From: Ischnura elegans
Taxonomy: Eukaryota > Arthropoda > Insecta > Odonata > Coenagrionidae
Assembly: GCF_921293095.1 (NCBI RefSeq)
Contig: NC_060246.1
Span: 111,022,941 to 111,086,940, forward strand
Direction of reading: 5' to 3'
Length of the DNA: 64,000 nt
The notes beneath the pieces were generated by a model. That model had not been told where the DNA came from. It did no database searches and saw nothing but the letters and a program-made list of their open reading frames with translations. The translations under genes and the position numbers were made by a program. This document shows positions 11,201 through 62,988 of this stretch, piece by piece. Each line of letters starts with the position of its first letter. Position 1 is the stretch's first letter.

Positions 11201-13415
11201 AACTATATTTAGACTACTCGTTGATTTTAAAAGCGAGGATGAAAGATAATAATGGCATGCGTGATAGCCGCTTATATTCACAATAGCTTCAGATTTCCTC
11301 GGTGATTATTCTGCATCCAAAGTAGCAGTACATTTCCCCTTTTCGTCAGATTCGTCCGTTAGTGTACCGTCAAAAAAAGGCATTTTTCGTATACTCCTAG
11401 TCATGGATTTCAGTCCATTACAGAGTCTAGAAACAAACACCATGAAACCGCTTGGAATTCGTTTGGCTAAGTATTTTTGGTCCATCTCTACTTTCTCTTC
11501 TTCGTAAATAACGCCTAAAGCTTTCAAAAACATTACTTTCGATTACTAAAGACCTTCCTTTTTAATAACTGTGAAACTGTAAAATTATGGGAAGGAATTT
11601 GTACAGAACGTTCAAAGTAATTCTTGGAGCTCTACAGACACTTAAAGGAATTCTGTAAAAATTCCTTTAAAAAGAGTATTTAAATATTTTAAGGAACTTC
11701 TATGCTAAATTTTGGGGAATTTGTGTGGAAAAAATTTTATGTAATTTCTACAGAGTTGTCTGGCGGGGTAACTTTCTTTGATTCGCGAAACTGTTTTTCT
11801 TGAAGGTTTTACTTGTGAAGAGGCGAGCTTTCCGTGTGACCTGTACTCCACTCCGGTCGAATTGGTCATCAACTCTACCAACTCCGTCGAGGGCTTCCGG
11901 TTGCAGAATGAGACTAGCGAGTTTCCTGCAGCGAGGCGAACCGTTTCCAACATCTGCCTGGCTCAGCGGTTTTTCTGCGACGGCACCCCTCACTGCCCGA
12001 ACGGCGAGGACGAGAGCTTGCTGGCTTGCGGTGAGTTGCGATTTATGGCCGCGTAAAGTGAGGGAAGGAAGGAAGACGACTAGGAGAAAAGAAATCGACT
12101 CGAATCCACACAAAGACCGGAAATGTCAGTGCGGAATTCAATTTTTTTATACGGGGGAAATACCTAAAATCCAACAGATAGAACATGTATGCATGCTTTC
12201 AAATTTTGCGATTTTTGCAGAAATCGACCCCACCTTACAATTCCTCGTATCAGTATGTAATAATCGGAATTTTTTATTTATTCTTGGAGATTTTCGCAGC
12301 TTCTTTCGTCAATTATTTGCGTTCCTTTCGGCAAATGCTGCTTCTGAGTCATTTTCGCTGGAAGTTTCGCTTCCTAATAAATTCCTTCTTTTTGAAAAGA
12401 AATATGAGCCATCTTTTTAATACTTCCTTTTTGTTACTTATTATTAATCAACGTTTAACTTTCTCCAGATATGTGAAAAAGTTTCTATTTAAAGATCGCA
12501 CCAAAAATAAAAGAGTGATTTCATTGCCGAGGTCGCATCTTATTCGCGTGAGGTAAGCTGCTCAATTTTAACACTTTCCCTCAAGTTAGCGTTCATAATA
12601 TTAATTCGTTATAGAATAGCAATTTACAAGCAGTTATAACGCATGGAAAAATAGCACAATAATTAAATGCGTGTGGCAACACAAATACAATGAACAACGT
12701 TCCCGAAATAATAAATAAAAATATAATTCAAGTTCGAAAGGTTGAAATTCATTGTAGTAAATAGTTTTCAACATTCAATTAGACTTAACAGAGGTCTAAA
12801 ATGTTCGAAACGAACAATTTTCAAAGTTTTTGATTGCCACCTGAGCAAAGCATCGTGCGTTAAGGACTCAGACGCAGCTTTCCATAAAGTAAAACAAATA
12901 ATTTATTGGAGATACATTAATATTAATAGTTCATTGAAGTAATTTATCATATTAATATATTTCAATGTAAAATATTATTAAATTTATAATTAATCAAAAA
13001 ATAATTAATTAAAATGCTTTCATACTTAATCCTTAAAAAGATTTGAATTATTTGTAGGCTAACATTTTAGTAGATTGGAAAGAAATTCCGGAGAAAGTCG
13101 AGTTCAAGATGTCATCATCTTACCGGTTTCGATTCTAATTACACGTCAGCATGAGTTATTGGTTTCTTGCTTTCATAATTTCCCTTGATAGATAGCAGGT
13201 ATCCTCGTTTCCCATGAGGATCTGATTGTCTTTTTACGTGGACTTTGTCGATATTTCTTTTCTCCTAAGTATTGGATTTGACCTATTCGTATCAACTGTG
13301 CAGTATTCCACTTGGGTCATACTTCCCTCGAGTATCCGTCTAGCGCAGTCTTCTCAATTTAATATCTGTATCCAGCTGCAGAAATTTTATTCTCTGTCTC
13401 TCTCTTAGCTCTATT

Positions 13416-34400: not shown

Positions 34401-37400
34401 CCTTATCCTGTTAATTTGCCAGGAAAGCAGCAGCTGTCGAACCCACCCATTCAAAGCACCAAATCCTTATTAGTGTTTCTTTCTGTTAAATGTTATTATT
34501 ACTATTAACAGTGGGCTAAAAGTTGAGTACTGATAAATTTACCAAAATGAGAATGTAACTCTCATTTTCATTTTTCTAGTGACTCAAATTGCATACTTTG
34601 AATATTTATCCTTTTCCTGTGAACAATCTGTGTGCTTTGTGCTTGTGCTTTTGTATCCATAATTGTACTTAAGGTTAATGTCTTCTTTACGTGAATTCAT
34701 TTTTGGGTGTTCATGTATAGGTGAGAAACCAGGCCAAAGACTGACTGGAAGGGAAGCTTCTTGTTTTCCTTTTATAAATTACTCTTTGTTTTGTCGATTT
34801 TATCATTTCCTTTATTATCAATGGCCAGTTTGATGTTCAAAGAGAAAGATATTGAACGATTTCATGTGTATTATGTATGTGAATTTTGCCATGTTTCTCT
34901 GCATTAAATATTCTGTCGAACTCAGAATGTAATGAGTCAGAACTCTATGTTGTAAGCTCTCGTTTTTTCATGTATGCCAATCATCACAGTGAGCCTCCCC
35001 ACATAATAATTCCCCTTTCCCCTCTTTTCCCCCTCTCTTCTCCCTGTTCCACACATAGGTGCCTCGGATCACCCGATATCCCCTCACCTGTCCCTCGTCT
35101 GCCTGGAGCACCTCGGGAACCTTCCAACCCCCCATCGTCCTACGCTCACCATCCCAACCAATGCCCCCTCCCCCCCACATCACAATAGAGAATATTGATA
35201 TGAAGAAAAACATAACTTTATGGTGGAGTTCACTGTCAAGTCATTGGCCCCAATGAATCTGTGACCAAATAATTTAATACGAATAGGCTTAAATTAAAGC
35301 TGTGACCTCTTCGTATTAAAGAACATCATCTCTGCATTCCTTGTTGTTATCATAAAGGTAAAACTAATTTTTCTTTTTAATATTTCAGCTGATGTTTATG
35401 GGTGGCTAGTGGTATTTGTATTGCCAATCAACTCAGCCTTCAACCCTTTGATTTACACATTTACAACTCCATCATTTCACTTGAGGTCTTTCAAGCGGCT
35501 GGCTCTCTTTTCTCTAAGGAGAATCATCATGATAAACCAAAATAGATCAAGAAGAGAGAAGTCACGTAGGATTAAATTTCATCTTAAGCCATTTGCTGTT
35601 GGGAATTTTCCTGAAAATTCCTTAGGTCGTGTTGGAATTAATATTTGTAAGTATCCTATTTCTCATGCATATGTTTTCTGGAATAACCGTATGATAGTTA
35701 TTGTAGGCTACTTGAAATTGTATCATCTATGAAAAAAAGAACACCAAGACGGTTTGAGGCCATTAACATTATAATAAAAATCTGTGATATAGCATTACTG
35801 CATTAATATGGTTAATTAATCATTCTCATAGTGAGTATGTTCATCTCCAGTTTTTTCAGGCTTATTTCTTTCTCATGGTTGATTTTAACAACATTCTAAA
35901 AAAAAACTGTATCAAAGAATATACATAATAATCAAGTTACAAACGCTTCATGTTCATAACTCTGGGAAAACTCTAGCAAGGTAGAATCACAGTCAGTGAT
36001 CCAAATGTTTTGAGATGTTTATTTATCTTCAATCAGAATCAGTTCAATTGAATGAGTGTTTTAAAATAGGATTAAGAGAGGAGTAAGTGTCATTCCAGTT
36101 GGAATTACAAGTAGAGCAGATGCAGTTTTCCTTATTCAAAAGAATGAAAGCCAACTGTGGGCTACTATAGGTTTTTAATGTGCAAAAGAATTAATGCTGG
36201 TTAAGACTGAAATAGATGATGAGAAGATATTGAAATGAGAGCTAGTTGCAGTTTTCCACAAGACTGTATCAGATGATGGCTCTGTTAGCTGAAACACATC
36301 ATACACATTAAATTATTTTGGAAAAGTGCCACTACCTTTCATTTCAATACGTCGAATTTCCACTATATCACACATGAATCAGTTAAACTTCTATTGAGAA
36401 GAGGCCGCCCTCATCAATAAAATCAGAAATGCAGTTACCAAAAGACCCAGCTTAACTCGTTCCTTTTTAGGTCTTCTCTGAGAATTAGGCCAGACTCTCC
36501 GACTCAAGTTTAATAATTCAAATGGCGAGTTAAATTGAATGAAAATTAAACTATGTTTTTCCACATGAAATATTTATTGGATCACTACGATGGTTTCAAC
36601 GCTCTGCATCATCCTCAGGCGGGTTAAATGGCCACCCCCTTCCTCTTACCTCCCCCACCACATTCTTCCTTCTGATATTTTACCCCCCTCACTATTTTTG
36701 AAGATACATACACATATCTGTAGGAAATCGATTTTTTTAGTTTCTGTTAGTACCTGGTGATGAATTTATAACAATTGAAACATGTGTAGCACTCTGTTAA
36801 TTAAATTGTGGATGATGCGATATCTTCATTGATCATTAGGTTATGTTGTTCCACGACATCATTCCACAAAAAGTTGACTTTATTAGTTCCTCAATCCTCC
36901 TCTGAACAAAAGTGTGAATGCCAGACATACTGTTGACATTATTGTAGCCTTAACTATGACACATCTGAATATCGAGTGTGCAATGTATCTTTTGTTACCT
37001 CACTTGCATCTTTTTTTCCAATGGAGGAAATAATGCAAAAAAGACTCGTGCACTTCAACTTTGCCTGATTCAACATGGAGGTATCTTATTATTTCACACA
37101 TTTGATCTACGTGAGATATGTCAGGAGTACTATCTAACAAGATACCAAAATATTTTGTCTCATTAACATTATGCACTGGCCATTTTTTCTTTCACTGCTT
37201 TACCTTTTAGAGAGCAATATGTATGCTGGTTTTGTAACTGTGGAGAGAAATAAGTCCTCATGATTCTTTCAGATGAGGCTGTCTTTATTAAATACTATTT
37301 TAAAACAGGGTCGTAGTATGATAGAAATTTAATGAAATCCGAAACAACTGCCTCTCTTTGATATGATGCCTGGGATGAACCACCCCTCACCCTACACTAT

Positions 37401-42284: not shown

Positions 42285-42373
42285 ATGTCACGCAATAATC
42301 GTCCCTCATGCCAGGTGAGAGATTGTTTGTATCAAGATGAGAAAAAGTTTTTCTTCCCTTGGAGCCGTGAACG
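42285..42373 (+). CDS. THAP-ZAD gene exon 1: THAP domain N-terminus
   Basis: Encodes MSRNNRPSCQVRDC, carrying the first zinc ligands at C9 and C14, then KKFFFPW, the usual position of the THAP hydrophobic/proline block. 89 nt, leaving in phase 2 through GTAAGT. The second THAP gene at 62900 has an exon 1 of identical length, phase and cysteine spacing. Confidence 0.9.
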
Positions 42374-45300
42374 GTAAGTTCTGCGTAATTTAATTTGATA
42401 TCATACCTGGGTTTAGATTGGTGGCATAGTGGGTGGAGCTGTGGGCTGCTGATCGAATGGTCATGCTTCGAAACCTGGTTGCAGTCTTAAAACAGCCTCG
42501 TAATGAAGGCTGGCTCAGAGAAAGGAATAGGCCCCGCCCAATGTGAAAGTTTTGAGTGATATTCTAACACCTGTAGCTTATAATTTTGGGTGAGTTCTAC
42601 CCTCATCTATACTAACATTCGGTGCGCTTGAACTTGATTTACCACAATGTACTTCGAAATTTAGGAGAACGTAAATAGACATCCATACCCTGGATTATGC
42701 TTACCTAGGCAACATGGGGTCCCATGACCTTTCGATTAGCTGGCATGATTTGGATTGAACCCTGGTGCCAGTGAGGCAGGAAAAGTTGCACCATTTAGAA
42801 AAACTTTTGGGAAGGGTAAGCGAATGTTAATGTAGTGCAGTCAATCAGATTCCTGGATGGACAGAAAGCTACTCTCTTTATTCTGGATGTTTACATTACT
42901 TTAGTCATGGACAAGTGGCTTCAAAAGAGGGTGTTTAAGCATTATTGTTTTTTTGGAGAATATTCAATCATGGTTGTGGGGATGAACAAAAGTTGCATTA
43001 AACCATTTGTTAGAGTCTAGAAACTTAGTTTAAAACCCTCTACGTGGTACCCTATTTTTCAAAAATTTTCGTCCTGGTTTTGGACCCCCCCCCACCCAAA
43101 CAAAATCCCTGGCTACGCCACTGTTTATATGGTTTGACATCTCCTCATTTGCAGGCATTCTCTAGCAGAGGAATGTAATATCTCTGTGCAACTAATTTAG
43201 CTCTAGCTCTTGGTGATTGCCTTCTTGGAAAATCTCCAAGAAGACAATATACTCGCAGTATACACACTCTCACATAGGCGGCCATGGTGACGATGACTTG
43301 CTGGTGTCCGTTCTTCTTCGAGGATCTTTGTTTGGGGTGTCCAAATATTTAGCCAGGAATTTAAAACCGGGACCCTTCAATCAGTCACCCAACTACCTAC
43401 ATGGCTCCACACTCCCACATACAACCATAAAAGACATTATGAAAATGCAATTTTTCAAATATAGTTTCCAGCAAATGAAGCATAAAAAAGCCTCTTTTTG
43501 TGTGTCAGTCGAGAAAGTATGCTGTTGAGCATTACATATACATATTTTGGCATTTTCATGATGATAGCTCTTACTTTTTATTGATGCAACCTTATTAATC
43601 GACACACAAACAACCTTTCCACTGATTCTTAAATTGGTCCAGAGATGCTGTGCTCCTTATAAATAGTCCTTGGGATTGGAGTAGGTTGCAGACAGAAAAA
43701 AACTGGCATCCAATGTTTTGGGCTGGTATTTCAAGTATCCACTTTGAACCTGTTAAGAGAGTAGCATCAGCAGAGCCAGTCATAAGAGTACATACATATT
43801 TCGTGATTCTATGTTATTACTTGCAGATAATATTCCTGTTAATTTACATCCATAATTCTTGAGAACTTTGTGGAAGTAACATTGAATATGTCTTCATTCT
43901 GTGTTATTATGGTAAAACTCTTTCTTTCCTTATTGATTTTTGGTTGGTCACTATAAAGGGCAGAAAAATGGAGGGAAGCTTGTGACAATCCATGCCTCAG
44001 CAATCTGCCATTTGAAGAAGTGTATGCTAAATTAGTTGTGTGTAAGAGGCACTTTTCTCAAGACATGTTTGCGGATCACAATGCTGAAAAGTTATGCCCT
44101 CATGCTGTGCCTAATATATTTCTACCTGTGAAAAATGCTGGACCTATCCGTAAAACAGGTAAGGTTGGTTTTGTTGCGATATATTCAGGAATCCAGTGTT
44201 TTTCATCTGATTATGAGACAGATGTTGTTGAATGCAATACAAGCTTTGAAATCCAATCCAAGTCATTTGAATGTTTTGATATCTGCAGCCCATGAAATGA
44301 TTGTAATTGAAATTGATCCCAGTTTTAATTTTAACTATTTCCCAGGTACAGAAAATAAAACATCTCAATTTGAGTCTGTGGCCCACCTTAAAAACCAAGA
44401 AATGAATGTTTTCTCTTCATTGGAAGCTTTCTGTGAAGAAGCAGCAAAGCCTGGAAGTTCTAATGCTGTCATTGACAGCTATTATAGGTACAATCTATGT
44501 CGGGTTTGTTATCATAACAAATGTGAAATGATCAATATATTTGAGAAGTCTTCCCAGTACGAGTTTGAAATAAGCAGTACTATTGAAGATGTACTTCAAT
44601 GCAAGGTGAGTAATGCCTACCCTATTTACAATTTATGATATACTAATGATTAGTTGATTTTATGCTAATAAATCCTCACAAATTACATTCTATATGCATT
44701 TTATAGCTTCATTCCTCAAAAAAAATATAGTTAGTTGATTTTTAGGGCCCCAGAGTTAATAATAATAATAAATTTATTATATGGGCATGAGCCCTATTTC
44801 AATGAAGTACAATATGTATCAGGTTAAACAAATGATTATAAAAGACAGTCGGTATATATGATCTATTTACTATTGTTTAATTAGTGCTAATGTATAGTTA
44901 CATACTCATTTATTACAAATCCCATTAAAATAGGTAAAAAGGGCTTACAAAACAAAATGAATTAAATGATCATTGCTCTATAAATGAACAGTAATTTAAA
45001 TTTATAATTTGTTATTACATAGCTATCACTCCTGTCTTTTTTTCACATGAATGATTATCATGATGGAGTGCTGAATCCTGGGGGTCTATTCTCTAACTTG
45101 AAGCTCCCGTCGTGGTAGCTTCGAACTAGCTACCAGAATTGGCTACCAACCTTATTCTCTAACAGGGAGTAGCTTTCTCAGACCGAGAATTTCTGGTAGC
45201 TTTCTCAGACCGGATATGGGGTATGAGAAATATTTCGTGCGAACTCAGATTTTACTCTTAGAACCAATGAAATCGCTCGTTTCATTACGTAACCTGCGGG

Positions 45301-48300
45301 AAAATCATAATGTAGTCGTTCTCGGCTGACTTTTTCTTCTAGTTGAAATTAATGTGCTTTGTAAATTACGAAATGCTGAGTGCCTTCAGCTTTCATAATA
45401 ATAGAAATACGTAGAAATAATTATATTTGGCTAAGCGGCTTTTATATCAATTCAATAGTTTCGATCGATGCAGCAGTTTATGTCACGATTGATAATCATG
45501 TTGGCCATGTTAATATAATGAAGAGAAAATGTTAATAAACTACCAACACATTAAACCAATGCTATCACATTGTCGTTCTAATTCCCGAGAACTTTACACT
45601 CAGCGCTCCTTATGCTTTTGCCTGTTTGATGCAAAAATTTTGATGACCAACTGTTTCTGTGCAGAGATTGTTACTTCTTCCACTGCGAGAGAATATCGCA
45701 ATAACATGTGCATACGATAAGTGTATATTATTTCGGGAATATCTTCAACAAAGTTAATGGGAAGGTGGAGAAAATTATGTTTGAAAGTTACGTCATTTCA
45801 CTCAGATTGGCCTAAGCAATCATTTTAGGCTCACAATATGCTTCAATCGATATTTTCACAAAACTCATACTGTCGTGCCGTTCTCACGACGGCTAAATTA
45901 ATATTTAAATGGTTTTATGAATAAGTATATTATATGCCAACCGCCAAGCTTGCACTATTGCAAGCGAGGGCGATTCATTAGAACTTGACCATCATTGTGA
46001 AAAAACAACCTATTAAACGTAGTTCCTTCTCCCAATATTAAAGTCATATTATATTATTGTTTTTGTGATGACTTCCTCCGTGGGCTTCTGGAATATCCAT
46101 GGCTACACTTTCTCAAAGTTCAAAACAAATACACCAACTTAACTACCGGCACTGAAATTAAATGCGTATATACGGCCAAAGACACACAAATGAAAGCAGA
46201 ATGATATCATGAACACATTTATTCATTGGAAGAGCAAAAAATTTATTAATAACTATCATGAAACACCTTACATTGCATTATAACACAATAATATATCCAC
46301 CTCTCTCCGGTCTGCATCTATGTAACACTAACCTCTCTTCACACAATCACTTCACAACAAAGATCGTTGCTAATAATGCACGGTAAAGTTAATCATAAAT
46401 GTATAAACACTTGCAAAAATAAGACATCCATCTCTGTGCAGTGGATACATTGGCATTGGTAATGATTTCAACGCATCAATTTGTACCGTCACTACAACAG
46501 TCTCTCGCAACATCAATAATAATCACTGTTTTCGGGGTTTTTCTTCTCACTAGTAATGACTTCATGCAAAATAAGATTTCACGTGATATAAAATGATTGA
46601 AAGTAACATTTTTCTTCTCCAAATAATGAAATCAGCTAGTTAACGCGATCGATAGTTCACTCCGAAACATATATGTTTAGTCACGAAATTTGTCACTCAT
46701 GCCCACTACTTTGTTAAGAATACAATAATTGAAGGCTTCAAATAATTTACGCAGCATTCCCGACCTCATTAAAGAAAATAATTACGCAAAACAACAAAAA
46801 TAGTCAACACTTTTCTTGTTTACCACTCAATCGCTAGCCGTGTCAAGAAAGACTGATGGGATAGAACAAAAGATTAGCGACACGCGCCACTTGGTTCACG
46901 GCGGTTCATAGGAATTCCCTATGTATTTTGATGGTAGCTAGCTGAAGCGCGGGGTTCGAGGGCGCGCCTCGCGAAGCTACCGTGGTAGCTAGTTTGAAGC
47001 TACGGAAGTACCGTCCCAACCCTTATTCTCTATGGGATTTGAAGCTACGGAAGTAGCTTCAAATCCCATAGAGAATAAGGGTTGGAGCCTAATAAGCTAC
47101 CGGTAGCTTCTGCAAGCTCCCTTCGCCGGAGCTTCAGCGTTAGAGAATACAAGTGGGAGCAAGTAGCTTAATTAAGCATCTTTCCACCAGAAAGCTACCG
47201 CGCTTCGAGTTAGAGAATAGACCCCCTGGAGATATTATTTTCTCATCTGTCCAAAATTGGAATTTTTCCATTTTTTACTCTCCAGATATGTATCACTTTT
47301 TGAGAAAAAATTGAATGGTGATGTGCCTTCTGTTTTATAAAGGCTGTTATTCGTTAGTGCTTTGTCTCACATTTCAGGTATCCAAGACTGACATTTACCC
47401 TATGTTTATTTGTCAAGAATGCCTCTGTGAGTTGTCAGTCATTAAAAAATTCAGGGATAACTATGTTGAAAGAAAGCTGTCATTTGAAGAAAAATTGAGA
47501 GCCCTGGGTTTGAGTGGTGCCAAAACAGACGTACAGCCAAAGCAGGAGAAGAATATTGATTCCTTGGCTGTTGAAGATGACTTGGAGGCAACCCAGGATG
47601 TTGGTTGTATGAAAGACACTGGCCCTGTACATACAACCAAGGTAAGGAATGATCATTTTATCAAAATAATATGCTATTAATAATGGATTATGTCATGCAT
47701 TTATTTATTCATACTGGTATGTATAGGGAAATGTTATCATAGCAGTTGTATATCACAGTGCAGTAAGCCATCATAACGATAGCTCTCAAGATTTCTATTT
47801 GAATTATTGGTTGGATCCTTGTGTAGGTGCTAATTATGTACTTTTATCTACCTATGTTGGCTCTTTACACATTGTTGTGTGCTATTTCCTGAAGTAAAAA
47901 TCATTGATTGCTTATTCTTCTCATAACCTATTGCTATTACAAGTGCCTTCCTTAAAGCTAAAGGTTTTTGCTAAGATTAATGCCTCACTCTCAATATAAT
48001 GTGGTATAACTATGAAGCATGAGAATTTGAGAAAAGCTCCAGCTAGTTCACATCAACTCAAAGTGCTTTGACTCAACCTTGTCTTGGCTTGGTCTTTCGT
48101 TGAGATAAGCTCAACTTTGTCTTGACTGTAGCCAGTGGCAAGGATGATTTCTGTGCAGATCTTTTGTCCTTACTGGCAATGCCTTCACTAATGACAGGTG
48201 GTCAGAGCTGTGATTGGTGGAATATTTGACGTATTGTAGCTGAAATAGTAACTTCTCTTTAGTTATTATTGATCAACAAACTCAAAGTTTTATTTTTCAG

Positions 48301-51300
48301 TTAACTGCATAGTTACTTAGATATCTACATATTATGGCTAAAAAAATGGCCAAATTCCTAGAAGTGTTCCGCCTCAGATAAGTTTTTTATTAAAAAACTT
48401 GGGGTAATCAAAATTGGTAGAATCATAATTTTACAGAATTCATACTGCAGCGAGGAAAATATTCTAAAAATTGCTTATGTTAAACATGAAATGTAATTTG
48501 AGGCCTGGAGGTAAGCGGAGGAGTGTAAAGCACAGAAAAAAATTAAAAGGCACGGTTGAACATGAGTATCAAATAATTTAATAACAAAAGAAACGGTTGC
48601 TTTTAAAAAAATCACCTTTCTGAACTGTGGTAGCCAGGAAACCAACTAAAAAACTTGGGGAAAGGCTAAGTTAGAAACAGGGATGGAGGATTGTTACCTT
48701 GGCTGTAGGAGGTAGCCGTGGTCGAAAAAGGTGCCTTTGGTCGCCACCCGGGAGCAGCTCTTCTCACGCCCAAGCACTTGACAAGAGCTTCAGCAAAACA
48801 ATGCACACCGCTCGCATACAAACATTCCCTTATATATGTTAGGGCCCATTTGCCACCACCAATGGCAATTAAGCAATGTTAGAAACAGCAGTTTTTTAAC
48901 AGAAGATCCCAGTATACCTGTTGAATAGCATTTCTATGCTGTCTTGCATGGGTTATAGCCCAGAGATGGACTTGGAAACACAGTTACACATTTATCCACA
49001 CATGCTCAAATTCAGCATCCTTAGGATCTCAAATCCAGACTTATAGATGCTTAATGATTGGGATTGTGCCTGCTAGTTGTGCTGCCAAGTCTTTCAGTGG
49101 GTCAAGCTGTGTTGTTCAGTGCCTGTAAAACATGGTACTTTTTATCCTTTTTGTATGTTTAGGCGCACGTGATTGAGAAGGAACCTGATGAGATGAATTC
49201 AACTCATGAAGATGATGAGGAAATGTCCTCAAGTGATTTCTCAAAAGATTCAGCTGATGAAAAAGATGAGGTCAGTACAGGAATATTATAATACAGTAAG
49301 TGATTGTGAGACTGAAATGATTCCTGATAATATTTATTGGCTCTTTAATTAGTGCTGTTAATACTTACGATTTTTTGTTTGTTTTGGAGATTACAAATAC
49401 CAGTTGAAAAAAATTGGGTTCTTATTGAAAATTACATACATTATTACAGCCATACATATTTATCAGCAATTGATGCAATGTGCTCCATTTAGAAACATCT
49501 TCATTTTCTATGGAGAAGTAGTACTTGACAGGATGAGTTTGCTGAAAATAATTTCAGTTACTCCAGAAATTTTTATTATAATTACTAATTTTAATTTTTA
49601 ATACATATTTTCAAAATCCAATCTAAAGATTGCTAAGATGGATAGCAAAAATGCAAAGTATTAAATGATAATATGGGTGAGTGTGTGTTAGGTGTAGATC
49701 AGGTAAACAATAGGATTCTGGTGGTAGAAATTGAGGTGCAATCCACTAACCTTGTTTTGGTTCAAGTTTACATGCCCACTAGTAATCATGGGGAGGAAGA
49801 AATAGATGAGGTGCATGAACAGCTCGAGGAAATAATTAGAAGGACCTCGGGAAAGAAAAATCTAGTAGTGATGGGGTGCTGGAATGCTTCAGTGGGGGAA
49901 GGGAAGGATGGAAACAAAGTAGGAGAATTTGGATTAGGAATGAGAAAAAATGGAGAGAGAAAGCAGCAGGATTTTGTAGGAGAAACAAATTATTCATCAC
50001 AAACACGTGGTTCAATCATCATAAAGGGCGAAGGTAAACATGGAAAAGTCCAGGGGATGTGGCAAGATATCAGATAGACTACATCATGGTTAGACAGAGG
50101 TTTAGGAATAGTGTGAAAAACTAGAGCGGTGCAGTGCAGATTCAGATCACAACCTAGTACTTATGAAATGCAATGTAAGATTCAAATGTTTAATGAAAGT
50201 TAGAAAGGCGAGGAAATAGGATTTAGAAGCTCTGAAGGGAGAATATCAGGAATTTGTGGAAAATAGTATCCGGGAGATTGAAAGTACACAGACTGTAGAA
50301 GATGGGTGGGATATTATTAAAATGGGAATACGTATTCGAAGTGACAGAGAAGTCAATTAGGTATGTTGAAAGTAGAGGGATAAAGAAGCCATGGATCACA
50401 GAGAGAATGGTAAAACAAATGGACAAGAGGAGGAAGTGGAAGAAGTTGGACACAGAGCAGGGTAATAGAATGTGTAGGGAAATAATTAATCGATTACTGC
50501 ATGAAACTATGAGGGCAAGGGAGGCTTGGTGGAAAAGACAGTGCGAGGGAAAGTTTCAGCAGTAGAGTAAAAAAGGGACAGAAGACAAATGGAGGTGAAG
50601 ACAAACAAGTATTTGGGCAAAGGTCAGTTTGGTTTTTGAAAAGGAAAGTCAACTCATGATGCAGTAGTGATGATCAGGACCCTCGTGGAGAGGAATCTAG
50701 AATATGACCAGGACGTGTATGCCTGCTTTGTGGATTTTGAAAAAGCATTTGATAGAGTGAACTGGGTAAAGTCAGTGGATTTTCACGGGAGGATAGGTGT
50801 AGATTGCAGGGATAGGCGACTCATTCATAATCTTTATATGGCCCAGATGGCACAAGTAAGGGTAGCGGAAGGAGAATCTGGGTGGACAAGCATTGCTGAG
50901 GTGTGAGGCAAGACTATCCTCTATCGCTGCTGCTTTTTAATGTACACGCAGAGGAGATGGTAAGGGAAGCATAGGGCAAGTTGGAAGCTAGAGTAAAAGT
51001 GGGAGGAATGATGTTAAAATCAGTGAGGTTTGAGGATGATCTTGATTAGTCAGTCAGCGAGGGGGATTCAGACCCAAGTGGACGTGTTAAACAAGTGTTG
51101 CGTTAGAATTGGATGAGGATTAATCACAAGAAGACCAAGGTTATGAGATTTTTTAAAGCATTGAAGGCGAGGAATGTGAGGCTAAAAATAAAGGTGGCAG
51201 GGGAAAAACATGATCAGGTAGACCTATTCAACTATTTAGGCAGCACTTTAGTGTAAAACGGATAAAGTAGTAAGGACGTCAGGGAGAGAATAGCATTAGC

Positions 51301-54300
51301 AAAGGAGGCATTCATGAACAGGAAAGAGCGTATGGGAGGATCGTTACATAAGAGTTTACAGAAAAGGTTAGTGAAGAGTCTGATATGGAGTGTAGCTCTT
51401 TACGGTGGGGAAATGTGAACACTTAGGAAGGAGGACAAAGAGAAGACTGGAGGCATTCGAGATGTAAGTGTGGCCAAGAAAGGAGAAGGTAAAGTGGACA
51501 GAGAGGAGGAGGAACGAGGAAGTGGTGGATATGGTGGCGGAGGAGAGGCAGATTTAAATAAGATACAGAGGAGACAGAAGGTATGGATGGAGCAAGTACT
51601 TAGTGGGGAGGAGACGATGTAAACAGTGTTAGAGGTTAGAATATTAGGTGAACGAGGGAGAGGAAGGAAAAGAATAGGATTTTTAGGTGGAATGAAAGGG
51701 AGTAGGCCTTGAAAAGGGAAGTGCTAGAAGGAAGGGAAGGCTCCCAGAATATGTACTTCTAAAGTACTCCATGGAGACCTATCTTAATTGGTATAATACT
51801 ATATCAATAATAATAATAGTTTTTCATTCATGAAGTTCAGATATTTTCAGTTACAAGCCACTCATTGTAGCGATGAGGTCATCTTTCTGCTGGGGCAGGT
51901 TTGAGGTGTAAGCTTCCATTCAAATAATGTTGAAGTCATGGTCAAACTTGGAATGGCTTTACAGATTTGAATAAATATATTTAATAAAATGTGTTTGAAA
52001 TGGTATGAATTTACTGATTTGTACTCAATAATTTTAAACCTTCACTTCAAAACTCTAAAAATTTTAAATATTTAATATTCTTTTAGGATTTTCCAGACCT
52101 TCAAAGTGATGATTCGGAAGTTCCTGCAGTTGGTGAACCTCCTGAGGGTGCTACTAGGAAGAATACTGACATTGTTGTGGACGGAATACCTCTTCAGAGA
52201 GTATTCAAGTGTTTAGAATGTAATGAGGTATTTGAATTTAGAAATCTTCTTACAAAGCATATAGCGGAGCACAGGAAGACATGGCCACTTTCATGCCAGT
52301 TCTGTGAACGGAGGCAAGTTATTTTTGTGACTTAATGGTAAATTTTAGTTTGAATCATTTTAAGCCTGGAAATTTTGATTGCATGAGAAATTTTTTTCAG
52401 TATTATTTTTTACAAATTCAATGAATGACAAGAGGATGCCCAATCCCTTCTTGAGGAGGAATGTGCGAGCACTCGAAGATTCGAGTCAAGTCGTTTCGGT
52501 TACAGGACTGTTGAGGCCAATAGGTGTAGAAATCTGACGACAGGAGGCACTATCCTCAAACTCATTTAAGAATATCGTTTGTAAAGTTCATAAATCATTC
52601 TAATACCTTGGCATGAGAGTTTCAGCTTGCTGTATATGTAGCAGTAAACCACTATAGTAATCGACGTGGGTGATGAACACCTTCTCGTCAGCCATGGCAG
52701 CTGACCCACTTTCGACCCAGCTGCATAGTGGACCACTACATCCCTCATACTTTCTACTGCAATGCTTTTGTTCCCTACCCTACATTCTAGATGCAAATGC
52801 CGAGAGAATACGTAAAAATTGTTAAGGGATCTATGAAAGTATTACATATCTAACTTTTAGGTTTTAGTGGATGATGCTGGTTTTTCCCATGTTTGACGGC
52901 ACAATTGGTGCAATGGTTGAGCCTATTTGAGTACTGCATTCATCTGATGTTAATTGTTGTTTATTCCTTTGTCAATCTTTAGTTTCCTTCTTGAAATTAC
53001 AAAATAAGAGTCCCTAAGGTTGGTTAAATGAAGTGAGAAACCAAGAATGGTTTATTTTGGTCTACAAAGCTAAGTTTTATAGTTCGTTCGCTTTTTCCTC
53101 TGAAATTCCACCAAATTAAAGATTCATACAACTTGTTGATATGATTTTTTTATAAAAAGTCCCAAGGTTCCGAAATCTTACAGTTTTGGCAAGAAAGCTA
53201 ATCAGACAAGTGTGTAGCGAAAGACAATTTTCTGCAGGCAGCAATACTGGTGATACTATAATACTGTAGCATGAGACGTCAAAACCTTCTGCCTGAACAT
53301 ATTGAGCGATTAGTTTTTCTGCTTGAGGATTCAAAAGAATAAAGACTTACATGACTAATTTATGTATAAAATCTTTATTATAACTATGCAAATGACTTTA
53401 CTCTGGGTTCATCCCAGCAGTTTTGATACATATTTTAATTAAAGTGTCGATATGTTACTAGAGGTCATTTCATTTCAATTTTGTGTATGGAACTATTTTA
53501 TGCACTTTAATTTTCTTTTATTTCCTAGTTCTGACATAATTACCTCATCATCTTTCCTCGTACATTCTTATTTCTTTAATCAAATACATTCCTCATCATC
53601 TCCTCCTTTTTACAGCAGGCTATTCAGAAATACATTAAATTTAAATTATATCTTAATTTCTTCAAATTATTCCTTTCCCTTAGTTCTCATTTCTCTATAG
53701 TGGAGTCATTACGCCATTGTCACCAGTTTCTGAAATTGTGACCTGGTGAAACCAATTTAAAAAATCATCATGGTATTCCAGGGCCAAAAAGCATAAAATT
53801 CATAGTTAAGAAGAGGAAATTGACTTGGAGATTAGAAAAATGAGAATATGTAGGTGCTTGCATTATCATTTTGCCAGATCCAGAAATTGCCATACTCGAC
53901 TTGATACTAGCGAGTAGTTTACAACTCGACTCCAAAAGTACAGATCAAAAAGTACTACTCGCACATCCCTATACTTGAGTACTTAGTGGAGGGAATTACA
54001 AGTACAGCAGTCTTCCTTTCAGATTGGACGTCAAAACATGGTCTCTTTGGCTCTTTTTGTTATGATTCCGATGTTGGGTTTCTTTTCACCCTTCCTTCCC
54101 TACCTATTCCTATGGTGCGAATGGCCTTAGCTACTGCTTGTCTTCTCGAAATAGCATACCTTTAAAAAATCATTGAAAAAAGAAATTGAAAATGCACTGC
54201 AAAGCAAACTTAAAGATTAATTTAGTATCTTATGTTCATAGCTTGATGTTTCTAATCTCAGGCGTATGCTTCATAAGTTTGTTTAAATTTTCTCTCTCTT

Positions 54301-56729
54301 TCTGATGCAGTATGTTTTCTGTGTCAACAACAGTTTGGCTGGACTTGCTCTCGGCAGCTTAAGGTGCAATACGCCTGGCTGTCTTTATTCAAGATACCAT
54401 GCCTCTGAAGTCATTTTTGTTTGGCTCATTGCCTTAGACCTTTTTATTACCCATTTAATTATTTATTTTCATCTTCTCTGTTCCTTGTATTGAGATTTTG
54501 GGTCATTAAATTCCATTATTTAGTTTAAAAATTTCCTAGTTGGTGGAAACTTTTTTCCTCTCTCTTGTCCATCTTGTAGCTAAATAAGTAAACTCACGGT
54601 AAAAAATTATGGAACAATGTGTGCAATAAAATAGCAGAATAGGTATATATTGCCTCAAGAGTATTCTGATGAAATGCTGACTGCAATAGGCCTACAGGAG
54701 CTTCAAATACTTTGCCTATATTGGTCTGCAATTTTGAGCAAAGGCAGATCCCTGGTTAAGCATACCTTTCAAATGATACTTACAATTAGATATATTAGGA
54801 TACTGTGACTTGGTAACTGGAAGCCACCTACCTGTATATTTCCCATCTCCTGGAGAAGAGGGCAGCTGCTCTTCTTTCTTATGAGAGAAAGTATAGAGCA
54901 TTCCACATTTAATTGACAGTGTGGGCTCTTATGGAGAATCTTTTCCTGGGTTATTCTTCATAAGCTGTCAGATACATTTTTTGAATAATCATAGGAAAAG
55001 GAAATTGTTCCTTTCAATGCATAAACATAGGCTACATTATTGGAGGAAATATCTTTACCATTAAGTAAATGATAAAAGTTTTAATATATTTTCATTTTTT
55101 TTTCATCTACTAACGTTTACTGAGCGCCTCTGTTTTTGACTTAATCTACTTCACTTGATTTCTGGCAACTGTTTCCTTGCATTGTCTTGAAAATGTCTCA
55201 TAAAGTTTTTCGAACACCTTTTCCATGGCGAAGTACATCTAGGGCAGGCATTAGATGTCATGAGTTGTCCAGAGCATCTGGTGAAAGGGCAAACTTCCGG
55301 TCAATTGGACTGCTTGGCACAAAGTTTTTGTAGGTTAAAAATGGTCCATTTTCAGCCAAACGTCATTAGTAATTTTGGTTCCCACTGGCATCGGCTTTCC
55401 GGATTAAAATTTTGTGACATAATTTTTCAGCACCCTGTACTTATTAAGACTGTCAGTTATATACAAATCACTGTTTTTAGGCATATCATTCAGTAAAATG
55501 TAGCACTAAGTGATTTGTTTTTTTAGTTGACTGCCGCATCGGTGTACCATCCCTTTGGGATGTTCTTAAGCAAGTTCCAGTATGCTACTACATCCCCAAG
55601 ATGTACTCTAGTTAGGACATGGTATATTCTTAGTTGGTGTAAATGGTTTGGAATTTTACCTTGATATCTGTGTAATCCTACATATTTTCATTTTTCCTTG
55701 AAAATATGGTGATTTGTCATATTTATGGCTACAATTTATTAATGAATAAAGCAAATGAATTCCTTATTAATTTTTTGCTCCTCCTCCTCACACTTTTTTG
55801 GATTTTAGTGTGACTTGTTCTTACCTCCATATGTATCTGTGGTGTAGCCAGGGGAGGGGTATGGGGGTCCAGACCCCCCCACTAATATAAGAACACAATT
55901 ATTTTACTTCATAAAAGAAAAATAATGTTGAAAAATTATGAATTTACTAAATATTTCTTCAACAAATGAAGTTTTTTTCTATCGTGAAAAGTGTTAAAAT
56001 TAGTTTTAAAAACCCTCAACTCAGTACCCTGTTTTTATGAAATTTTCCTCCCTGGTTTTGGACCCCACTAAATGAAATTCCCTACTTTGCCAATGCTCCA
56101 TATGGACTAAAGAACAAGTTTACTCTAAGTAATTTATGTTTTAATTGAATTTGGAGTTTATTAGTTTCCTAGTTGGCATTTATCACAAATTTTAATTGAT
56201 TACTCTTTTCTGCTTCAGGTTCAAGACTTTAATCGATCTCAACAATCACATAATTATGCACTCAGATTATAAACCATATGAGTGTGAATATTGTGGTTTA
56301 CGAATCCGTACAAAGACAAGTCTGATTCGACATAAAGCAGTACATACTAATGAAAAACCTTACCTGTGTTCTACTTGTGGAATTAGTTTTCGGGATAGCA
56401 TTTTGCTTCGAAATCATATGAGAATGCACTTGGGTATTAAAGTGTATAAATGTGAGATTTGTGATGCTCAGTTTACTGCTAGTAATATACTTCATGCACA
56501 CCTTCGTCGCCATACTAAGGAGAAAACTCATGTGTGTGGGCAGTGTAAGAAATCTTTCATGTCCAAGCAAAGACTAGCCAGTCATATTTTGTGTGTTCAT
56601 GATAAGATAAAAGCTTTCCAGTGTGATATTTGTTCCAAGTTTTATAGTACTCGAAATAATTTGAACTCTCACCGGAAACTTCATTACAAAAACGCTATTC
56701 CTGTGAAATTGAATATTAGTCCAGTTTAG
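42285..56729 (+). CDS. THAP-ZAD-C2H2 zinc finger protein, 7 exons
   Basis: A predicted nuclear DNA-binding factor. Seven exons join in phase to 1659 nt (552 aa plus stop). Domains: THAP (about 1-85; C9, C14, C58, H61 fit C-x4-C-x43-C-x2-H; W34 and the AVPNIF box present), ZAD/zf-AD (about 145-215; C148/C151 and C195/C198), a low-complexity acidic linker (about 215-340), and seven C2H2 fingers (about 345-545) with TGEKP-like linkers such as TNEKPY. THAP and C2H2 modules bind DNA; ZAD mediates dimerisation in insect zinc finger proteins. Having all three in one chain is unusual. The introns hold a TIR element, a LINE relic and MITEs. Intron 6 appears to use a GC donor. Targets cannot be inferred. 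Confidence 0.92.
42419..42600 (+). mobile_element. probable tRNA-derived SINE head
   Basis: Starts with a box A-like TGGCATAGTGGG and has a box B-like GCTTCGAAACC about 45 bases downstream, the spacing of an internal RNA polymerase III promoter. It does not fold as an intact tRNA. The 3' boundary is approximate. Confidence 0.5.
43021..43123. mobile_element. truncated hAT-type MITE, GTGGCGTAGCC family, copy 3
   Basis: Inverted orientation; only the G-rich half is present, ending GGCTACGCCACTG. The other half is missing. Confidence 0.75.
43959..44158 (+). CDS. THAP-ZAD gene exon 2: rest of THAP domain
   Basis: Encodes KWREACDNPC, LVVCKRHFSQDMF with the second zinc pair (C58, H61), and HAVPNIFLP, the conserved THAP C-terminal box. 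Phase 2 in, phase 1 out. Confidence 0.95.
44346..44605 (+). CDS. THAP-ZAD gene exon 3: linker and first half of ZAD
   Basis: After an acidic linker it encodes YNLCRVCYHNKCEMINIFEK, the first CxxC pair and first strand of a ZAD domain, then a helix-forming segment. Phase 1 in, phase 0 out. The acceptor (TTTCCCAG) follows a 187-bp intron. Confidence 0.92.
45082..47224. mobile_element. 2.1 kb non-autonomous TIR element with subterminal GTAGCT repeats
   Basis: The inverted ends are GGGTCTATTCTCTAACT followed by T/CGAAGC, about 23 bp with one mismatch. They are flanked by CCTGG on both sides if the element is taken to start GGGTC, which would be a 5-bp target duplication. Because of the G/C runs, a 3-bp CTG duplication fits equally well. 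Both ends carry many short copies of GAAGCTAC and its complement, and the right end holds a 70-nt perfect hairpin. No transposase frame. Superfamily undecided: the GGG...CCC termini recall PIF/Harbinger. Confidence 0.8.
47016..47085. repeat. 70-nt perfect hairpin inside the TIR element
   Basis: Two identical 33-nt arms, starting CCAACCCTTATTCTCTATGG, are inverted around the loop GGAA with no mismatch. The arm contains a TATTCTCTA core also present in the element ends. Confidence 0.95.
47378..47641 (+). CDS. THAP-ZAD gene exon 4: second half of ZAD and linker
   Basis: Encodes YPMFICQECLCELSVIKKFR, the second ZAD cysteine pair and its C-terminal helix, then a charged region with a short basic-acidic stretch. 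88 codons, phase 0 at both ends. Confidence 0.93.
47642..49162. other. THAP-ZAD intron 4
   Basis: 1.5 kb with no recognisable gene or repeat structure. Confidence 0.45.
49163..49270 (+). CDS. THAP-ZAD gene exon 5: acidic linker
   Basis: A 36-codon exon made mostly of Asp, Glu and Ser (EDDEEMSSSDFSKDSADEK), phase 0 at both ends, with a GTCAGT donor. Such linkers are usual between ZAD and C2H2 arrays, but the exon has no domain of its own, so it could be alternatively used. Confidence 0.75.
49673..51790 (+). pseudogene. degraded non-LTR retrotransposon (endonuclease-reverse transcriptase)
   Basis: Fragments in several frames, in order: AP-endonuclease-like domain (VYMPTSNHGEEEID; NLVVMGCWNASVGEG, 49673-50090); reverse transcriptase palm (GKSTHDAVVMI; CFVDFEKAFDRVNW, about 50640-50906); a decayed catalytic box read as RFEDD instead of a FADD/YADD core (about 51030); the FNYLGSTL box; and a basic C-terminal part (about 51540-51720). 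The element ends near a short AAT run (51806-51817). Many stops and frameshifts. It lies sense in THAP-ZAD intron 5. Clade not determined. Confidence 0.85.
52087..52313 (+). CDS. THAP-ZAD gene exon 6: linker, finger 1 and half of finger 2
   Basis: Ends the acidic linker and encodes finger 1 (FKCLECNEVFEFRNLLTKHI then AEH) and the CQFCER knuckle of finger 2. The exon must end at AG followed by GCAAGT, a GC donor, to stay in phase 2 with exon 7 and complete finger 2 as CQFCER-RFKTLIDLNNH. Confidence 0.88.
52455..53972. mobile_element. possible 1.5 kb TIR element with GGRATGTGCGAG ends
   Basis: Left end GAGGAATGTGCGAGCACTCGA, right end (reverse) TAGGGATGTGCGAGTAGTAC, with GATTCGAGTC-like repeats inside both ends. 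This resembles hAT element termini beginning CAGGGATGTGCGAGTA. Neither the target duplication nor the transposase was found. Confidence 0.4.
54894..54970. mobile_element. solitary end of the 30360-32972 transposon family
   Basis: Begins TAGAGCATTCCACATTTAAT after a TA and continues like the inner side of the right end of the intact copy (TGGGCTCTTATGGAGAAT). No matching opposite end was found, so this is a remnant. Confidence 0.7.
55837..56095. mobile_element. hAT-type MITE, GTGGCGTAGCC family, copy 4
   Basis: Inverted relative to copy 1: begins CTGTGGTGTAGCCAGG, has an AT-rich core, then GGTTTTGGACCCC, and a decayed right end CTTTGCCAATG. Located about 120 bp upstream of the last coding exon. 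Confidence 0.7.
56219..56729 (+). CDS. THAP-ZAD gene exon 7: fingers 2-7 and stop
   Basis: Completes finger 2, then encodes five more C2H2 fingers (YECEYC..., YLCSTC..., YKCEIC..., HVCGQC..., FQCDIC...), giving seven in all. Linkers such as TNEKPY, LGIKVY and TKEKTH are near the TGEKP consensus. Each finger keeps both Cys and both His. The chain ends shortly after the last finger. Confidence 0.97.
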
Positions 56730-57347: not shown

Positions 57348-57719
57348 ATAATTTTGCATGCAATGCTATTCAATAAGGTAAACGTTTAATTGTTAGCATG
57401 CTGAAAAATATAGATACATCTTTCAGATTAGTCTTTTACCTTGATATGAAGAGGGGAAAATTGTCAAATATTTTCAACAGAAAGTTCTTCTTTATCCCAG
57501 CCATCCTTCTCTATAAAAATGACTCCATAACCTGGTTGGAAACCTTGGAGGTAGAAATACCCCTCCCCCCTTAGAGCTGTAATATTCTCAATTTGGGTCA
57601 CAATTGCTTGATTGCAAGCATGCAAATCATGCGACGTAGATAGTGTTATTTCAAGTGATCCACAATTCAGTCATGGAAAGCATTCATTATTAGGGGAAAT
57701 ATAAGTGGCATTACCAGAT

Positions 57720-59215
57720 CTGCAGTAATACAAACCATCTTCGCCGATATTTGCATCACTACCATTTTCACTATAATAAATAATAAGATTTAATCAATAA
57801 TTACTTATTACCTTTCCACCGTCATTGGAAACCTATGCATCATGGCGTCAACTTTTCGGCTGCTGCAGCCAGCCACTGCACAAGTTGTCTTTGGCTTTTC
57901 CACAAAAATCATACAGCAGGCAAAAGTGTGCAGGAGACCATGTGACCGCATATGACAACGTTCGCGTTCCTCTAAGTTAACGGAACTGATACCTGATACC
58001 CCTGCTACCTCCCCTCATACGCCTGTGAACCTCCCCTCCGGCGTCAGTATCGACACCTGTTAGTGAGGTGAAGGTTATTCGAGTTCTCCACCGGGTAATC
58101 TCCTTCATGGCTGCCGACATTTCGGGGCACGAGTAGTACTCCATCTTCAGGGCTGAGTGTCATTTCTCGGAAGGTGTTCGCGTTATATAGCGTGCCGGGA
58201 TGTCAAGTTCCCTCTGATTGTCCTTGGTATTAGCCAATTGAATTTTATTCAATACAGGTTTCTACACGTAACTGAGGGAGTAACCGCCATCTCTATTGAA
58301 GTTCTTGTCCGTTAGCCGGATCTCTATGGCCTCCTTCATAATCCTTTCCCAATAATTCTTTTCTCGAGAGATGATCTTCACATCTTTCCAATGAATGGCG
58401 TGGTTTTGCTTGATGTCGTGTTCGTGCAGATTTTTCCGGGTGACATAGCCTGAAATGCCTTTGATGTTCCTTTATTCTCGAGGGCCATTGTCCTGCCAGT
58501 TTCCCCCACGTAAACTTCTCCACATTCACAGGGAATCTGGTATATCCCGGGAGTTGCGAGGCCACAGGGATCCTTGGCTCTATCTAGTTGGTCCCTATAA
58601 GCTTAGTACAGGGCCGGAAGAAGGATTCAATTCCGTGTCTTTTCAAAATTCTGGAGATTTTGCCAGAAACCGTGGACACATATGGCATTCCGACTCTTGC
58701 CGCCGGTTCCTGCCGTTCTTCATCCCCACGGGTGCCTACTCGATCGCTGAAGGACCTTTTAAGGGCCGAAGATATCTCCCCCCTGTTGTACCCATGCAGG
58801 CGGAAGGTCTTTATTAATCTCCTGTGCTAGGTTGTCAGAGTCGGATATGACCCTTGCTCGGTGGAATAGCGTGGACAAAATCGATGTTCTTTGGGATGTA
58901 GGATGATGACTAAGTCCATTCAGGTAAAGGTCGGTATGCGTGTTTTTCTGCTAGACGCTGTGTCCCAGATCTTCCTGGCGGTATATCAGGATGTCCAACA
59001 AAGGTAGCCGACCATTTTTCTCTACTTCCATCGGTAAAATCATCCATCGGAATTTTCTTTATTGTACTAAAAAGTACTCAGGGTTAAATTAATCTTTGTG
59101 ATAGTTGACATTAACTGTGTAATGTCATTTTCCCTGATAAACAATTTCCCTTATGCTGGTTATTTCTCATCTACTTGATTGATTTTAGTTTCCTATTTAA
59201 TCACTGCCGTTATAC
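57720..59215 (-). repeat. left arm of a 4.7 kb imperfect palindrome
   Basis: Three blocks reappear inverted on the right. 57720-58191 matches 61980-62454; 58192-58258 matches 60180-60246; 59041-59215 matches 60009-60185. The piece at 58259-59040, Penelope-like coding sequence, is present only here. Outer-arm identity is high (few differences per 100 bp by eye). Confidence 0.9.
58193..59040 (-). pseudogene. Penelope-like retroelement 3' coding part with GIY-YIG nuclease
   Basis: On the minus strand, from 59040 downward: end of the reverse transcriptase (EVEKNGRLPLLDILIYRQ; HTDLYLNGLSHHPTSKN), the connection region (VGMPYVSTVSGKISRILKRH), and then the GIY-YIG nuclease start (PGIYQIPCECGEVYVGETGR), a KEHQRHFR block, and a tail reaching PVLNKI-like sequence. 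Stops and at least two frameshifts make it inactive. The element is 5' truncated at 59040, where unrelated sequence shared with the right arm begins. Confidence 0.85.
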
Positions 59216-60299: not shown

Positions 60300-60560
60300 T
60301 ACAGGAAGGATAGGTGTACCCTTCCTGTACCCTTCAGCAAGGGTACACGAAGGGTATTTTAGAACATCGGTGGGTACGCCCTCTCCCTCCTGGAGGGTAC
60401 GGGAAGGGTTTGGCCAGCCTCGATGAAGGGTACAGGAAGGATAAGTGTACCCTTCGGCAAGGGTACACGAAGGGTATTTTAGAACATTGGTGGGTACGCC
60501 CTCTCCTTCCTGGAGTGTACAGGAAGGGTTTGGCCAGCCTCAATGGAGGGTACAGGAAGG
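60300..60560. repeat. minisatellite, 120-bp unit, two copies
   Basis: Two units at a 120-bp offset, each with GGGTACACGAAGGGTATTTT and GGTGGGTACGCCCTCTCC. They contain many smaller inverted GGGTAC/GTACCC motifs. An open frame reads through both but is a by-product of the repeat. Confidence 0.95.
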
Positions 60561-61300: not shown

Positions 61301-61474
61301 AATATGTATAGTATTGTTTTCCTGAAGGAAATTTTAAAGATTAGTTGTGTAGCCCGTCTATCTTTGCTTTCAAAGACTGCTTACGTTCTTGTACGGAACT
61401 CAATACTCTTCAGCAGGTGAAAGTAGCTGAGGAGACACTCTCACGATATGTTTTCCTCAGTTATAAATGCTAAG

Positions 61475-61905
61475 TCCCAAGGAAGGGTAGACTAAGGATT
61501 TTTCTCTCCTTCCCTTACCCTTAATGGTGGGTAGAGGAAGGGTACACGGATGGTAAGCGAAGGAGTTCCAAGGAAGGGTACACGAAGGATTTTTCTCCCC
61601 TTACCCTTAATGGTGGGTAGAGGAAGGGTACACGGATGGTAAGGGAAGGAGTTCCAAGGAAGGGTACACGAAGGATTTTTCTCTCCTTCCCTTACCCTTA
61701 ATGGCGGGTAGAGGAAGGGTACACGGATGGTAAGCGAAGGAGTTCCAAGGAAGGGTACACGAAGGATTTTTCTCTCCTTCCCTTACCCTTAATGGTGGGT
61801 AGAGGAAGGGTACACGGATGGTAAGGGAAGGAGTTCCAAGGAAGGGTACACGAAGGATTTTTCTCTCCTTCCCTTACCCTTAATGGTGGGTAGGGCGTGG
61901 GTCGT
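61475..61905. repeat. minisatellite, about 91-bp unit, 4.7 copies
   Basis: CCAAGGAAGGGTA recurs at 61477, 61568, 61654, 61745 and 61836 (periods 91, 86, 91, 91). Units contain CTTACCCTTAATGGYGGGTA and GGTACACGGATGGTAAG. Copies are nearly identical, so the array is young or homogenised. Confidence 0.97.
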
Positions 61906-62899
61906 TCAAAGGTAACTACCCACCATGAAGGATGCTACCCTTCCTGTACCCACCATGGTGGAGTTTATTTTTATCAGGGACGCTATATCACGCGAACACC
62001 TTCCGAGAAATGACACTCAGCCCTGAAGATGGAGTACTACTCGTACCCCGAAATGTCGGCAGCCATGAAGGAGATTACCCGGTGGAGAACTCGAATAGCC
62101 TTCACTTTCACTAACAGGTGTCGATACTGACGCCGGAGGGGAGGTTCACAGGCGTATGAGGGGAGGTAGCAGGGGTATCAGGTATCAGTTCCGTTAACTT
62201 AGAGGAACGCGAACGTTGTCATATGAGGTCACATGGTCTCCTGCACGCTTATGCCTGCTGTATGATTTTTGTGGAAAATGCCGAAGACAACTTGTGCAGT
62301 GGCCGGCTGCAGCAGCCGAAAAGTTGACGCCATGATGCATAGGTTTCCAATGACGGTGGAAAGGTAATAAGTAATTATTGATTAAATCTTATTATTTATT
62401 ATAGTGAAAATGGTAGTGATGCAAATATCGGCGAAGATGGTTTGTAATATCGCAGATGAAACCCGAAGCACGATTGTTTATTTACTTATTTACTAAAGGG
62501 TTTGATGTATTAGGTCGACAATATTTTCTCATTATATTTTCATTTCGCCGCGGCATGATATTAATATTCGATGGTGTCATGACATGTCGATAAACATAGA
62601 GTTTGTAGGGTATTTATGTCGATAAATCTTATAAGAAGGCGAAGGGAACGGAACAAGTGAGGCTTATGATGCGTACTGATGCGTACAATCCGTACCGTGC
62701 AGCGGACCAAAACAATCGGAAAGGAAATATTCTTTGGACAGAAAGGTAGAAATAGAAACCATCGCAGAACAGTGTGATGAAACATTCGTTGGAAATTGCA
62801 GTGGCTATGCGAAAATATGTCTTAAGCTGTTATTCGTAAAAGAAAGTGTTGCGATAACCTTATGCTCGTCTAATTTGTCGATCATCGAAGAAAGTGAAA

Positions 62900-62988
62900 A
62901 TGCCCCAAATTCACATTCGCCCGTGCATGGTGCTTGGCTGTATTCCAGATGACATTAAAAGACACAGGTTCCCTCGGACCGCAGAAAT
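62900..62988 (+). CDS. second THAP-domain gene, exon 1 (gene runs off the window)
   Basis: Encodes MPQIHIRPCMVLGC followed by KRHRFPRTAEM: zinc ligands C9 and C14 and the HRFP block of a THAP domain. 89 nt ending in phase 2 at GTAAGT, exactly like exon 1 of the THAP-ZAD gene. No continuation with the C-x2-H half was found before the window ends, so exon 2 must lie beyond 64000. It could be a plain THAP protein, a THAP-derived transposase, or another THAP-ZAD factor. Confidence 0.8.

Follow-up and report, generated by a model that had tools for sequence, protein, structure and literature searches.

Two Drosophila genes, CG6689 and CG10431, are published as encoding THAP-ZAD-ZNF proteins, which combine a THAP domain and a zinc finger-associated ZAD with C2H2 zinc fingers (PMC9810180, S2 Fig legend). 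As described there, the THAP domain of CG6689 is located in the first two exons; the gene is placed in the Cucoid clade, within which THAP is specific to CG6689 and its precursor, and CG10431 is called only distantly related to it (PMC9810180). The same source lists CG6689 as lethal with uncharacterised function and ascribes zinc coordination, dimerisation, and nuclear localisation to ZADs, and both genes are listed with "Eggs" in a germline RNA interference screen (PMC8022714). PMC10027918 discusses THAP genes as factors derived from transposons, and the P transposases of Anopheles are reported to contain a THAP domain and to have mostly three-exon coding sequences (PMC1562414). The evolution of the ZAD-ZNF family at large in Drosophila is the subject of PMC7655104, with no THAP among the matches listed; besides PMC9810180, no title on the THAP-ZAD combination appears among the literature matches listed. 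Here, we analyzed a stretch of 64,000 nucleotides from chromosome 1 of the damselfly Ischnura elegans (C1:111022941-111086940; hereafter, the window), which contains a seven-exon gene whose predicted product carries all three modules.

The gene was rebuilt from the sequence as seven exons between window positions 42285 and 56729 (Table 1), which comprise 1,659 bases, i.e., 552 codons and a stop codon, with no internal stops and with intron phases of 2, 1, 0, 0, 0, and 2 after exons 1 to 6. This confirms the preliminary description, which had noticed THAP, ZAD, and seven C2H2 fingers in one predicted chain. Judged from its sequence, the locus is very likely one protein-coding gene for a 552-amino-acid nuclear, sequence-specific DNA-binding protein of a small THAP-ZAD-ZNF family. 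Splice sites were scored with a simple matrix of consensus values and ranked as percentiles among the GT or AG sites of the window; 9 of the 12 sites lie at or above the 95th percentile, and acceptors 5 and 6 lie at 94.9 and 94.5. Exon borders had been said to fall between modules, which holds for introns 2, 4, and 5 in the linkers but not for introns 1, 3, and 6, which split the THAP domain, the ZAD, and finger 2, respectively.

THAP domains are characterized by C-x(2-4)-C-x(35-50)-C-x2-H ligands together with conserved P, W, and F residues and an AVP motif. This signature is complete in the predicted protein (C9-x4-C14-x43-C58-x2-H61, P25, W34, F62, AVP 79-81), as are the four invariant cysteines of the ZAD (C148, C151, C195, C198) and all seven C-x2-C-x12-H-x3,4-H fingers, which start at residues 349, 377, 405, 433, 461, 489, and 518, so that the ligands of all modules are intact, as had been stated. 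The domain search proposed earlier placed all three profiles above their Pfam cut-offs on the whole 552-amino-acid protein: THAP (PF05485) at residues 9-84 with 31.0 bits (cut-off 23.9; 36.5 bits for exons 1 and 2 alone), zf-AD (PF07776) at residues 147-221 with 37.8 bits (profile positions 1-74 of 75; cut-off 28), and zf-C2H2 with 78.5 bits. The three modules defining a THAP-ZAD-ZNF protein are thus found in one chain of the gene model, and relatives with a common THAP/ZAD frame exist. No match to Tnp_P_element or an RNase H-like domain was found in the 552 residues (Pfam, E up to 0.01), which sets the protein apart from P-element-like transposases. Sequence searches of solved structures gave a weak match of the THAP part alone to human THAP1 (2ko0, E 0.15) and nothing meaningful for the ZAD. 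Scans of viral and genome contig collections with the first 239 residues yielded 5 and 23 pattern matches, none of them confirmed.

The same arrangement recurs in a tandem paralog. In a genome search with exon 2 (110 contigs, 1,722,721,009 bases; all 88 candidates were scored, with 85 matches at E up to 10), the first match other than the gene itself is a same-strand locus situated 38 kb downstream. Its exon 1 lies inside the window and its remaining exons beyond it (C1:111104825-111123033), giving a paralog of about 37 kb; a second candidate for exon 1, within a transposon arm, has a lower donor score. A single unbroken exon (C1:111104825-111105392) carries the second THAP part, the linker, and the first ZAD half in a common open frame of 208 amino acids (L023:7871-8497), and the later exons follow in the same order as those of the window gene; a limited scan found no counterpart of exon 5. 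The 564-amino-acid product scores 39.1 bits for THAP and 51 bits for zf-AD, is above the cut-off for C2H2, and has seven fingers. It aligns with the window protein end to end from residue 1 (41.7% identity, 527 codons), with identities of 37.8% in THAP, 41.8% in the ZAD, 53.4% in the C2H2 part, and 24.5% in the THAP-ZAD linker. A tandem copy with the same order and frames argues that the arrangement in the window is more than chance.

Codon comparison of the two genes gave proportions of synonymous differences (pS) of 0.78-0.84, which are saturated, and nonsynonymous divergence (dN) of 0.39-0.60 across the three modules. Since the protein has changed only moderately where synonymous sites are saturated, all three modules look constrained. 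Function had previously been argued from the intact ligands, and the proportion of nonsynonymous differences (pN), which is below pS, points the same way. By its sequence, the window gene is real and encodes one chain, and its product is probably a functional DNA-binding factor. The finger contact positions (-1, 2, 3, and 6) are the same in finger 1 of both proteins and nearly so in finger 2, but differ in fingers 3-7, as expected of a change in specificity. The two genes would accordingly appear to be working paralogs with altered target preference.

Further loci with the combination were found among the other exon 2 matches, of which we inspected 15 (the 85 matches include the gene itself). 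THAP and ZAD share one open frame in three of them (the tandem paralog, L034, and L038), and a ZAD exon lies downstream on the same strand in two (L060 and L061). Two are transposase-like by Pfam (L035 and L036), five appear so by eye (L037, L039, L041, L042, and L043), and three are ambiguous (L040, L044, and L045). A third gene, at C1:118255180-118262975, holds a THAP part and a ZAD half in one open frame of 354 amino acids; further downstream, that strand also carries the second ZAD half and seven fingers. At a fourth locus, on the minus strand at C13:16.718 Mb, the corresponding open frame has 237 amino acids, and the second ZAD half lies 11 kb downstream. L060 and L061, in mirror orientation on C13 (THAP exon/ZAD exon at 8697897/8709847 and 9400347/9394908; about 12 and 5 kb apart), are candidate joins. 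Because the THAP part and the ZAD half occupy one open frame in three other loci, an origin in which whole exons were joined in front of a ZAD gene, as suggested in the preliminary description, is not favoured; the window gene may have gained its intron 2 later, or the relatives may have lost it. In a ZAD tree of 10 hand-picked rows and 46 columns (near-copies L058 and L062 omitted), the four THAP-ZAD loci stand on one side together with L056 and L057, at only 68/85. The family of this genome would have grown by duplication, the tandem copy included. ZAD matches as a whole are unevenly distributed: by our own count, 134 of the 146 listed (best 150 of 901 candidates) lie on C13-C17, a few percent of the genome (C13, 21.3 Mb; C14, 18.8 Mb; C15, 11.9 Mb; C17, 10.3 Mb). 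ZAD-ZNF genes appear to be concentrated on the small chromosome 13 and on large unplaced scaffolds.

Several observations weigh against a single gene of this family. The acceptor of exon 2 is the weakest site of the model (76.5th percentile); the AEKWREAC start of this exon has a match in exon 2 of the tandem paralog. The model depends on a GC donor for intron 6 (gcaagt, scored against GT sites), a junction supported by the paralog, whose finger 2 intron has a GT donor at the identical place. An AATAAA at 44354, within exon 3, makes an early-ending THAP-only product conceivable. With dS (synonymous divergence) saturated, the case for constraint rests on pS against pN rather than on a measured ratio, and in the THAP-ZAD linker pN amounts to 0.56 and pS to 0.68. 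As exon pieces, the THAP parts of the third and fourth loci score 23.6 and 21.6 bits, just below the Pfam cut-off of 23.9; the ZAD half of the fourth locus has no Pfam match alone and was placed by 49% identity (E 1.8e-7); and the 1.5 kb searched upstream of each locus yielded no first THAP exon.

Among the alternatives, we consider it doubtful, though it deserves some credence, that the gene is the orthologue of CG6689 or CG10431 and that the THAP-ZAD combination is ancient in insects instead of having been fused separately in odonates. The modules are the same, and CG6689 has its THAP domain in the first two exons, as here (PMC9810180). What speaks against orthology is that CG6689 is placed in the Cucoid clade, its THAP domain being specific to the gene, and that CG10431 is regarded as only a distant relative; the fusion in the two fly genes is described as having arisen separately (PMC9810180).

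A different origin could involve the P-element-like transposons of this genome. The nearest THAP domains outside the family, in the exon 2 search, are those of L035 and L036, whose open frames contain a TNP-like RNase H domain above the cut-off and score 21.6 and 21.1 for Tnp_P_element (cut-off 23). In L036, L037, and L039, an exon starting RAEMW follows a first THAP exon whose donor is in phase 2, and the THAP intron of these loci coincides in place and phase with intron 1 of both the window gene and the paralog; for L035, L042, L043, and L040, no first THAP exon was found. The inverted arms between the two THAP-ZAD genes belong here as well: one of them has 11 genome matches, including two in the window and the loci of L036, L037, and L039. 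Between the arms lie an open frame on the minus strand (58378-58602) that by eye resembles the GIY-YIG part of Penelope-like elements but has no Pfam match, and minisatellites of about 120 and 91 bases at 60326-60560 and 61473-61893. The shared intron place and phase and the transposon arms fit a scenario in which the first exon of a ZAD-ZNF gene captured THAP exons from a P-element-like transposase in the odonate lineage, independently of the fly cases; through this domain, a host ZAD-ZNF repressor could recognise the ends of transposons of the type that still lies next to the gene. We regard this scenario as speculative and rather improbable. The shared intron could be old, which weighs against capture. 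In a THAP tree of 14 hand-picked rows and 57 columns (near-copies L037, L039, L043, and L045 omitted), none of the 11 inner branches is starred, and the THAP domains of the THAP-ZAD genes and those of the transposases require two changes for each group, with one clade in 0% of 200 bootstrap trees; the best split (93/86) sets the 11 rows with this type of THAP apart from the remaining three.

It is very unlikely that two genes are present, a THAP-only gene of exons 1 and 2, terminated within intron 2 or by an early poly-A site, followed by a ZAD-ZNF gene beginning at or near exon 3. Read past the exon 2 donor, the THAP frame does stay open until a stop at 44293-44295 and would encode a 141-amino-acid protein, with the AATAAA following, and the frame of exon 3 is open upstream to 44132 and contains in-frame ATGs. 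Against this, the exon 2 donor ranks second among the 3,422 GT sites of the window and the exon 3 acceptor is at the 99.2th percentile; no stop separates the second THAP part from the first ZAD half in three related loci; and the paralog aligns across the exon 2/3 junction, with G-T-E-N at the intron 2 point in both chains. The doubt that exons 1 and 2 belong to another gene is thus answered by the relatives, namely the tandem paralog and the two further common-frame loci. A decaying pseudogene, or an accidental, functionless join of a transposon-borne THAP domain to a ZAD-ZNF gene, is highly improbable: the THAP domain does match very many sequences in the genome, many rows being of equal score as in repeat families (best 150 of 2,278 candidates), P-element-like arms adjoin the gene, and the domain has a long end branch and its top identity in the tree with the transposase-like L041 (42%), but the 552 codons are free of stops and frameshifts, all module ligands are kept, and, in comparison with the tandem paralog, pN is well under pS for each module.

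Taking the locus as one THAP-ZAD-ZNF gene, its ZAD would pair two chains, as in other ZAD-ZNF proteins, and the seven-finger array would read a long site. The THAP domain may add a second, independent DNA contact per chain, which could raise affinity or restrict the set of targets. The damselfly family offers a concrete case in which to test whether transposase DNA-binding domains have been recruited repeatedly by insect transcription factors, and whether such factors go on to act on the transposons that supplied the domains. The odonate setting, the common THAP-ZAD frame in relatives, and the intron shared with P-element-like transposases add to its interest.

Table 1. Positions of the THAP-ZAD-ZNF gene, its tandem paralog, and the adjoining transposon arms in the window.
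Feature	Position	Strand	Description
Exon 1	42285-42373	+	Start codon and first THAP part (C9, C14); donor acg/gtaagt at the 99.7th percentile
Exon 2	43959-44158	+	Remaining THAP: W34, C58, H61, AVP 79-81
Intron 2	44159-44345	+	187 bases, between THAP and ZAD; counterpart absent in three related common-frame loci
Exon 3	44346-44605	+	Linker and first ZAD half (C148, C151)
Exon 4	47378-47641	+	Second ZAD half (C195, C198) and linker
Exon 5	49163-49270	+	Acidic linker
Exon 6	52087-52313	+	Linker, finger 1, start of finger 2; GC donor
Exon 7	56219-56729	+	Remainder of finger 2, fingers 3-7, stop
Inverted arms	57718-58196 and 61977-62457		In the interval separating both THAP-ZAD genes; contain first THAP exons belonging to the P-element-like family
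Exon 1 of tandem THAP-ZAD-ZNF paralog	62900-62988	+	Inside the window; in-frame fit

Other features were noticed in and around the gene. Intron 1 contains a repeat-like stretch (42420-42600) that by eye has a transfer RNA (tRNA)-derived look; tRNA calling found none in the window. Intron 5 contains remains of an element of the long interspersed type (49646-51418), with a weak RVT_1 match in one piece, and a strong strand skew is seen at 50-52 kb of the window. Upstream in the window, 11772-12053 and 33891-35729 on the plus strand encode a low-density lipoprotein receptor class A domain above the cut-off as well as fragments of a rhodopsin-type receptor, whose 7tm_1 match is under the cut-off; we take them to be a relaxin-receptor-like gene split by long introns. 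An open frame on the minus strand at 31310-31717 has weak helix-turn-helix matches and is probably a transposase remnant. To the left of the window, C1:110993551-111008974 on the minus strand contains a ZAD half-match and a C2H2 array, which suggests an ordinary ZAD-ZNF neighbour; no convincing THAP pattern was found on the minus strand in the stretch scanned there.

In comparison with known systems, the damselfly gene shares its order of a ZAD followed by a C2H2 array with insect ZAD-ZNF proteins in general. Ordinary ZAD loci of this genome, judged by their open frames, have a ZAD intron at apparently the same place, but the four examined (L050, L051, L055, and L059) carry an ATG immediately in front of the ZAD and lack a THAP domain in that exon, unlike the window gene. 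Its THAP part resembles that of the P-element-like transposases L036, L037, and L039, which have a phase-2 intron right before R-A-E-x-W; in L035 and L036, however, the THAP domain runs into the TNP-like RNase H domain and the Tnp_P_element match that falls just short of the cut-off, without a ZAD or C2H2 fingers. The preliminary description knew of no well-described family with both THAP and ZAD, a view that the two fly genes contradict (PMC9810180): the combination is already known, and the damselfly gene is not a new protein type. What appears to be new is a THAP-ZAD-ZNF family in Odonata, with a THAP intron placed as in the P-element-like transposases of the same genome. CG10431, likened here by its published description, is a ZAD-ZNF member that also has a THAP domain, as does the damselfly gene. 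CG6689 of Drosophila melanogaster has the same three modules and likewise carries THAP in its first two exons, but its THAP domain is described as specific to it and its precursor within the Cucoid clade, whereas the damselfly genome contains at least four loci with the combination.

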